From Halopenitus malekzadehii (GTDB lineage: Archaea; Halobacteriota; Halobacteria; Halobacteriales; Haloferacaceae), in contig NZ_FNWU01000001.1 of the NCBI RefSeq assembly GCF_900108505.1, forward strand, positions 1,008,725 to 1,072,724: a DNA stretch of 64,000 nucleotides. Direction: 5' to 3'. Below the pieces are notes generated by a model, which did not search any database, was not told the DNA's origin, and saw only the letters and a list, made by a program, of their open reading frames with translations. Both the position numbers and the translations under genes were made by a program. The first letter of the stretch is position 1. The number at the start of each line of letters is the position of its first letter. This document shows positions 19,222 to 20,137 of the stretch, piece by piece.

Positions 19222-19419
19222 TCAGGCGTCGACGACCTCGTAGCCCGCGTCGTCGATCGCGGCCACGACCGCCTCGGCCTCGGCATTGCCGGAGACCGTG
19301 ACGATCCCGGCCTCGTGGTCCGCGGTTGCGTCCTCGACGCCGGGGACCTCCGAGAGCGCCTCGACGACTGCGGTTTCGCATCCGTCACAGGCCATTCCTG
19401 ACACCGTGTATTCCGTCAT
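19222..19419 (-). CDS. copZ: Heavy-metal-associated copper chaperone
   Basis: A 65-residue single HMA domain with the metal-binding motif GMACDGC (Cys11 and Cys14) near the N-terminus and the ferredoxin-like fold ending in AIDDAGYEVVDA. It delivers or buffers Cu(I) in the cytosol. It is transcribed divergently from an Lrp/AsnC-type regulator carrying a TRASH metal-sensing domain, which strongly suggests a copper-response pair. The start at 19419 gives exactly the HMA domain; the longer open frame upstream runs into the regulator's gene and is not used. Confidence 0.9.
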   Translation of the reverse strand: MTEYTVSGMACDGCETAVVEALSEVPGVEDATADHEAGIVTVSGNAEAEAVVAAIDDAGYEVVDA

Positions 19420-19513
19420 ACCGATACCTTGGGCCCGATGATTGATGTCGATTTCCCTTTCGATCCGAATTCGATCACCCCAATTCGAACCAGAAACGCA
19501 TAGCCGATCGAGG

Positions 19514-19520
19514 TTTAAAC
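19514..19520 (+). promoter_or_regulatory. TATA box for the TRASH regulator
   Basis: TTTAAAC lies about 25 bp upstream of the ATG at 19541, matching a leaderless start. It is immediately followed by an inverted repeat. Confidence 0.6.
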
Positions 19521-19532
19521 TTGGATAGCCAA
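19521..19532 (+). promoter_or_regulatory. Candidate operator TTGG-N4-CCAA between TATA box and start
   Basis: A perfect inverted repeat TTGG-ATAG-CCAA sits between the TATA box and the start codon of the AsnC-TRASH regulator. A bound protein here would block transcription start, so autoregulation by the metal-sensing regulator is an attractive guess. The arms are only 4 bp, so chance occurrence is possible. Confidence 0.35.
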
Positions 19533-19540
19533 AGTACCCT

Positions 19541-20137
19541 ATGCGAACCCTCGACGACACCGACCGCGAGATCCTCGCGCTGTTGAGCGAGGACGCCAGA
19601 CGCCCGTTCAGCGACATCGCCGACCGAGTCGACCTCTCGGCGCCGGCGGTCTCGGATCGGGTCGACCGACTCGAGGAGATCGGCGTGATCGAGGGGTTCA
19701 CACTCCGGGTCGACCCCGGGACGCTCTCGAGCGGCGTCGCCGTCCTCGTCCGTCTCGACCTGCCGCTTTCGGCCGTCGACGACGCCTACGGCACCCTTCG
19801 CGGGCACGATTGCGTTGACCACGCCTTCAAGACGGCCGACGGCGAGGTGGTGTGTACCGCCACTCTCGATCCGGCAGCCGTCGGTGACCTGATCGCGGAC
19901 GTCCTCGACGACCCCGACGTGGCCCGGGACGTCTCGGTCCGGCTGCTCGAGTCCCACGCGTGGGACTCCACGATCGGTCCGGACGTCGACCTCGCGATCG
20001 ACTGTGTGGAGTGCGGCAATTCCGTCACCGAGGAGGGCGAATCCGCACGCATCGACGGCACGCTGTACCACTTCTGTTGCGGGTCCTGTCTTTCACGATT
20101 TCGGGACCGATACGACCGGATCGAGGAGGGCGCGTGA
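19541..20137 (+). CDS. Lrp/AsnC-type transcriptional regulator with TRASH metal-binding domain
   Basis: A 198-residue regulator. Residues 1-55 form the AsnC winged helix-turn-helix (LDDTDREILALLSEDARRPFSDIADRVDLSAPAVSDRVDRL, shown here in part). A RAM-like ligand-binding region follows to about 145. Residues 153-190 form a TRASH domain with Cys155, Cys158, Cys179/180 and Cys183 (CVECG and CCGSC). TRASH domains sense copper and related metals in archaea. The divergent copZ gene makes copper the most likely signal. The ATG at 19541 is preceded by TTTAAAC and an inverted repeat. It may activate or repress copZ and copper exporters located elsewhere. Confidence 0.9.
   Translation: MRTLDDTDREILALLSEDARRPFSDIADRVDLSAPAVSDRVDRLEEIGVIEGFTLRVDPGTLSSGVAVLVRLDLPLSAVDDAYGTLRGHDCVDHAFKTADGEVVCTATLDPAAVGDLIADVLDDPDVARDVSVRLLESHAWDSTIGPDVDLAIDCVECGNSVTEEGESARIDGTLYHFCCGSCLSRFRDRYDRIEEGA

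Follow-up and report, generated by a model that had tools for sequence, protein, structure and literature searches.

The divergent copper gene pair

The window, by which we mean the whole 64,000-nucleotide (64-kb) stretch of DNA analyzed here, belongs to a host genome (G000) of 3.1 Mb in 41 contigs and contains two copper-related genes that point away from each other. The reverse strand at positions 19222–19419 encodes a copZ-like copper chaperone of 65 amino acids, and the forward strand at positions 19541–20137 a CopR-type regulator of 198 amino acids, assigned from Pfam, a structure profile, a structural model and invariant cysteines. Between them lies a divergent promoter region of 121 bp (19420–19540). 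A preliminary description of this DNA had reported an HMA chaperone and a TRASH regulator in this arrangement, and its coordinates and domains agree with the called ORFs and with Pfam; its reading of the pair as a metal-sensing AsnC/Lrp-type regulator divergent from CopZ is probable, with support from the sequence. The chaperone gene product consists of a single HMA domain (PF00403, E=7.8e-18, 65.1 bits in Pfam) with the metal-binding loop GMACDGC, which fits the GMxCxxC pattern, and we regard it as a putative CopZ.

The two promoters are unequally built. Upstream of the regulator ATG at 19541 is a good TTTAAA (forward strand, 19514–19519), probably the TATA box of a leaderless transcript and invariant in all six columns across three genomes of the genus. 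The copZ promoter offers a poor TATA-like GGGAAA, with a palindrome beside the core; its putative BRE and weak TATA-like core, TCGAAAGGGAAATC (reverse strand, 19450–19463), resemble the core of the host's chromosomal copA promoter, TTCAAAAGGGAAACC. The genus alignment is invariant in 12 of 12 columns at 19453–19464. A further, largely genus-conserved block, TTGGG-CCGA-...-TTGATG (19429–19447), is flanked by the copZ start on one side and the copZ core promoter on the other, and may correspond to the transcription start or the leader. Taken as a whole, the two genes appear to form an ordinary haloarchaeal pair for the copper response, and no new mechanism is revealed by them.

The regulator and its family

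The N-terminus of the regulator (residues 4–51) matches the AsnC-type HTH (PF13404, E=6.5e-16, 58.3 bits in Pfam), while its C-terminus (residues 152–198) matches TRASH_HVO_1752_C (PF24273, E=3.8e-25, 88.2 bits against a curated cut-off of 27). The middle, at about residues 64–138, is RAM-like, though no Pfam RAM model was listed for the protein at E-values up to 1. Profile positions 3–138 match Lrp/AsnC structures (best 7fby, E=1.5e-19). In an AlphaFold2 model the HTH is followed by a beta-alpha-beta-beta-alpha-beta unit of RAM-like form and by a TRASH hairpin with a helix; given its mean pLDDT of 79.6 and pTM of 0.48, the packing of the domains is uncertain. With this model, Foldseek returned 42 matches at E≤0.001, which were Lrp/AsnC proteins and a siroheme decarboxylase of the same fold. 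Five cysteines (C155, C158, C179, C180 and C183) are the same in all 28 aligned sequences, comprising the window regulator and 27 of 37 haloarchaeal loci, and we take them to be the metal ligands of the TRASH domain.

The fusion of an AsnC-type HTH to a TRASH metal site had been singled out as of interest because AsnC regulators usually sense amino acids, but it is not unusual. Of 30 related genomes, 28 encode a full-length relative at E≤1e-30; the other two have completeness values of 80% and 78%. Halopenitus persicus is the nearest relative with a species name that was found, its regulator being 94% identical. All 145 genomes in a sample of the class contained the TRASH family PF24273, counted as a domain family irrespective of the AsnC fusion. 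Of 14 named controls the same search matched two, Haloferax volcanii and Sulfolobus acidocaldarius, above the cut-off in one. AsnC-TRASH fusions are common in haloarchaea, and the fusion is already known, since VNG1179C/CopR of Halobacterium, a copper regulator that has been studied, is built in the same way. With PF24273 a curated family and the architecture described in part of the literature (PMC4236453), novelty was rejected. From its domains and from published descriptions, the window protein would be a CopR (VNG1179C)-type Lrp/AsnC regulator. The RAM domain of VNG1179C has been suggested to be non-functional (PMC4236453). The namesake of the TRASH family, HVO_1752 of Haloferax volcanii, is described as a site used for insertion and lacking an obvious function (PMC8223754). 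Its deletion is reported to give no phenotype in the conditions tested, the mutant growing as wild type does under many of them (PMC8223754).

Regulators of this family are often linked to copper genes. A divergent copZ accompanies 31 of the 67 loci scanned, as detected by a regular expression that may miss some, and an HMA protein lies no more than 300 bases downstream at 29 of the 67.

A repeat between the TATA box and the start codon

In the preliminary description, a TTGG-N4-CCAA repeat, TTGGATAGCCAA (19521–19532), was proposed as an operator that would block initiation at the regulator promoter. Its position between TTTAAA and the ATG is exactly as claimed, and it is the sole instance in the window, where a mean of 0.12 is expected; 12 of 100 shuffles of the window contained at least one. 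The proposed function fared less well. Alignment of the gap with close relatives, the check named beforehand, revealed that the repeat is not conserved even within the genus: it is absent from both other genus genomes examined (L083, and L084, whose sequence here is the same as that of L011), and four of its eight half-site bases are invariant in the three-genome alignment, compared with 70 of 121 columns of the gap as a whole. Nor is it enriched genome-wide: the genome contains it 11 times and the reversed pattern 36 times. Among 60 loci examined, including 13 bacterial loci and eight other AsnC-type loci of the host genome, it was found in two, the window locus itself (L001) and one Paenibacillus locus. 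Its score against the copA-promoter motif described below is 2.5 bits, versus 10.9 for the palindrome at 19457–19471. We therefore rejected the repeat as an operator; judging by these comparisons, it is probably a chance occurrence.

A palindrome in copA promoters

CopA relatives were found in 37 of 40 genomes and gave 30 loci, 26 of them with a usable start (L118, L122, L133 and L134 were dropped for want of one). Three promoters of the genus Halopenitus were kept apart, so that the training set comprised the 23 copA promoters from other genera. Expectation maximization with a palindrome constraint on these 23 yielded CTTTGGAATCCAAAG, written CTTTSGAWTCSAAAG; in 17 of the 23, the best site falls between -76 and -81 relative to the copA ATG. 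An unconstrained search of 21 promoters (L117 and L121 were also left out) recovered the same motif with a log-likelihood ratio of 148.4, against 53.6–61.7 for 15 dinucleotide shuffles; the promoters are related sequences, and such shuffling does not preserve kinship. Maxima of the weight matrix were -5.5 to 7.1 bits in coding-region controls and 9.6 to 21.2 bits in promoters, the latter being the training set itself. In the held-out promoters the motif appeared at -77 in three of three, at 18.1, 19.3 and 20.6 bits. Motifs for VNG1179C have already been published, in figures (PMC4236453, PMC4177876).

Two copA promoters, L111 and L112, also carry a weak second motif-like site near -46 (4.7 and 5.4 bits), which places it about 31 bp, or three turns of the helix, away from the main site at -77. 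No such second site near -46 was among the top three in the copA promoter L113.

A candidate operator for copZ

The best match to the copA motif in the 64-kb window is CTTTCGATCCGAATT (19457–19471), which scores 10.9 bits and lies inside the copZ/regulator gap; outside the gap, none of 63,850 window positions reaches 10 bits. Its center is at -44 from the copZ ATG and -77 from that of the regulator. The equivalent sites in the other two genus genomes score 11.0 and 10.6 bits, and 13 of the 15 columns are invariant across the three. These observations make 19457–19471 the better operator candidate than TTGG-N4-CCAA, although it is weaker than the copA sites and carries two mismatches to TTTSGAWTCSAAA.

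The geometry of the site also differs from that at copA. At the host's two copA genes (contigs C27 and C11) and at an extra copZ on C11, the palindrome ends 24–25 bp upstream of the analogous core, a spacing counted by eye, whereas in the window it overlaps the putative copZ core (19450–19463) rather than lying upstream of it, which counts against an activating role.

The palindrome across haloarchaeal regulator loci

Sites of at least 10 bits are present at 30 of the 67 regulator loci scanned and lacking at 37. Where copZ and the regulator are divergent, 16 of 31 loci reach this score, centered at -44 to -48 (10 loci) or -74 to -78 (six loci) from the copZ ATG; two pairs among the 16 (L011/L084 and L027/L089) look like one genome represented twice. 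No site of at least 10 bits was detected in the other 15 divergent gaps, which belong to 11 Halorubrum, one Halobellus, one MAG, genome G014 and L099 (3.6 bits). The divergent pair is kept at L012, L014–L023, L025, L046 and L085, with no palindrome match in the gap; L085 is the locus of G014, which has no gap site, yet a strong copA site (L125, 21.2 bits). Loci without a detected divergent copZ have a site of at least 10 bits in 14 of 36 cases, centered at -48 to -60 (eight) or -81 to -83 (six) from the regulator ATG. The palindrome goes with copper genes in many, though not all, lineages, and the window site is a weak one.

The positions could be read as mirror images: in one form the site is near -45 from copZ and, measured from the regulator, at -76 to -86; in the other it is near -50 from the regulator and about -76 from copZ. 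We offer, as a tentative notion that leans towards the doubtful, that a single CopR palindrome in the gap would take one of these two positions and that lineages flip which gene is proximal and which distal, the present genus having the copZ-proximal form and a regulator separate from copA.

Other copper genes of the host genome

The chromosomal copA (contig C27, at 203 kb) is unlinked to the window regulator. A paralogue of the regulator (46%) resides on contig C11 with a divergent copZ of its own; copA, with CTTTGGAATCCAAAT, is directly downstream of it. The interval C11:17000–30000 (L076) amounts to a second copper module, consisting of the extra copZ (18.3 kb), the divergent copZ/regulator-paralogue pair (25 kb) and the downstream copA. 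The C11 copA promoter has the same sequence as that of another genome (L116), which is suggestive of transfer. As L116 is also a training promoter, the C11 copA is not an independent instance of the motif.

A genome-wide search for TTTSGAWTCSAAA with at most one mismatch, which the window site with its two mismatches falls outside, found six places against two for the backward control. Two lie upstream of copA genes (C11:25927 and C27:203818). A third, C11:18959, is found about 430 bases ahead of the extra copZ on C11, for which the weight matrix gives a better site at C11:18586 (16.5 bits). No copper gene was recognized in the ORF lists near the remaining three.

Proposed mechanism and alternatives

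The reading we favor, with moderate confidence, is that the metal-loaded regulator activates copZ from 19457–19471 and copA from a stronger site, its own promoter being mainly constitutive. By analogy with relatives, from which DNA binding, oligomeric state, metal identity and activation are all drawn, the HTH would bind DNA and the RAM-like middle would assemble dimers or larger oligomers. The TRASH cysteines would take up metal, most likely copper and perhaps also silver. The regulator would then bind the conserved 15-bp palindrome overlapping the weak TATA-like core of copZ and, when metal-loaded, activate this gene, as well as copA elsewhere on the chromosome from the stronger copy of the palindrome at -77, while the regulator's TTTAAA promoter would probably be mainly constitutive. 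The paralogue on C11 could instead be the protein that binds.

Activation of copZ is favored because the build of the gap, with a good TTTAAA for the regulator, a poor target core and a palindrome beside that core, resembles that of Pyrococcus CopR/copA. There, CopR is reported to activate copA; its targets have a C-enriched TATA box and, immediately upstream of the BRE, a semi-palindrome. When CopR is absent the regulator promoter is strong and that of copA weak (PMC7830388). In Halobacterium salinarum, copper-dependent activation of copA and of chaperones has been described (PMC3551603, PMC1779511), and the induction of copA by copper depends on VNG1179C (PMC1779511, PMC3551603; reviewed in PMC3600143). 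Our confidence is tempered because so many regulator loci are without a site, because the geometry is unlike that at copA, and because the likeness to VNG1179C is drawn from published descriptions.

The same overlap of palindrome and core TCGAAAGGGAAATC, unlike the arrangement at copA, might instead serve repression, in which the regulator would cover the BRE/TATA-like core of copZ until released by metal. Contrary to the reports above, VNG1179C has been called a repressor of copper ATPases (PMC5605881), its heat-shock targets being both repressed and activated (PMC5605881), and CopR of T. onnurineus was reported as a repressor (via PMC7830388). We nevertheless judge repression of copZ unlikely: at copA the motif precedes the analogous core, a position suited to an activator, yvgX (copA) is no longer copper-induced in the VNG1179C deletion of H. 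salinarum (PMC1779511), and Pyrococcus CopR stimulates transcription in vitro (PMC7830388). The autorepression reported for T. onnurineus CopR (via PMC7830388) might also be invoked for TTGGATAGCCAA, which the regulator would bind to block its own initiation in a manner altered by metal. The repeat is unique in the window, sits between TTTAAA and the ATG, and has half-sites that resemble the TTGGA/CCAAA of the copA motif (CTTGGATAGCCAAAG), albeit with a spacing one base longer. Its poor motif score, its lack of conservation in L083 and L084/L011 and of enrichment in the genome, and a report that copper leaves the VNG1179C transcript unchanged in H. salinarum (PMC3551603) render this explanation very improbable.

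That unchanged transcript also tells against a scheme which is otherwise compatible with activation of copZ, namely that one operator (-44 from copZ, -77 from the regulator) drives both genes and that the regulator is metal-induced too. The restriction of the 16 divergent sites to -44 to -48 or -74 to -78 from copZ would suit such sharing, as would the genus copA site, likewise at -77. In Haloferax alexandrinus, moreover, silver is reported to raise copA (at three doses), a neighboring lrp (at two doses) and copZ (at the top dose) (PMC10694973). However, no copA follows the window regulator, which has its own TTTAAA, and the distance of -77 may merely follow from the length of the gap; we consider a shared operator somewhat unlikely.

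Relation to known systems

With activation from 19457–19471 as the preferred reading, a cross-genus operator candidate for a haloarchaeal copper regulator replaces a palindrome that is probably due to chance, and ties the window copZ to copA elsewhere in the genome. The nearest counterpart, as far as published descriptions allow the likeness to be drawn, is the haloarchaeal VNG1179C/CopR of H. salinarum, which shares the Lrp/AsnC HTH and TRASH architecture (PMC3551603, PMC4236453, PMC1779511) and whose targets are yvgX (copA) and the HMA chaperones VNG0702H and VNG2581H. As points of difference, the window regulator diverges from copZ and has no linkage to the chromosomal copA. In Haloferax alexandrinus a comparable metal-responsive set of copA, lrp and copZ is consecutively numbered (PMC10694973); copA there adjoins lrp/copZ, whereas the host's chromosomal copA lies elsewhere.

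Pyrococcus furiosus CopR/copA resembles the window in its HTH and TRASH domains, divergent target, semi-palindrome beside the BRE, atypical target TATA and stronger regulator promoter, but differs in having copA rather than copZ across the gap, the consensus TTNNCAWWWTGNNAA and an extra His-rich tail on CopR (PMC7830388). The Saccharolobus solfataricus cluster of CopT/CopR, CopM and CopA likewise pairs a TRASH regulator with a chaperone and includes CopA alongside them (PMC3600143); its CopM is a TRASH chaperone, set apart from the HMA-type CopZ (PMC7830388).
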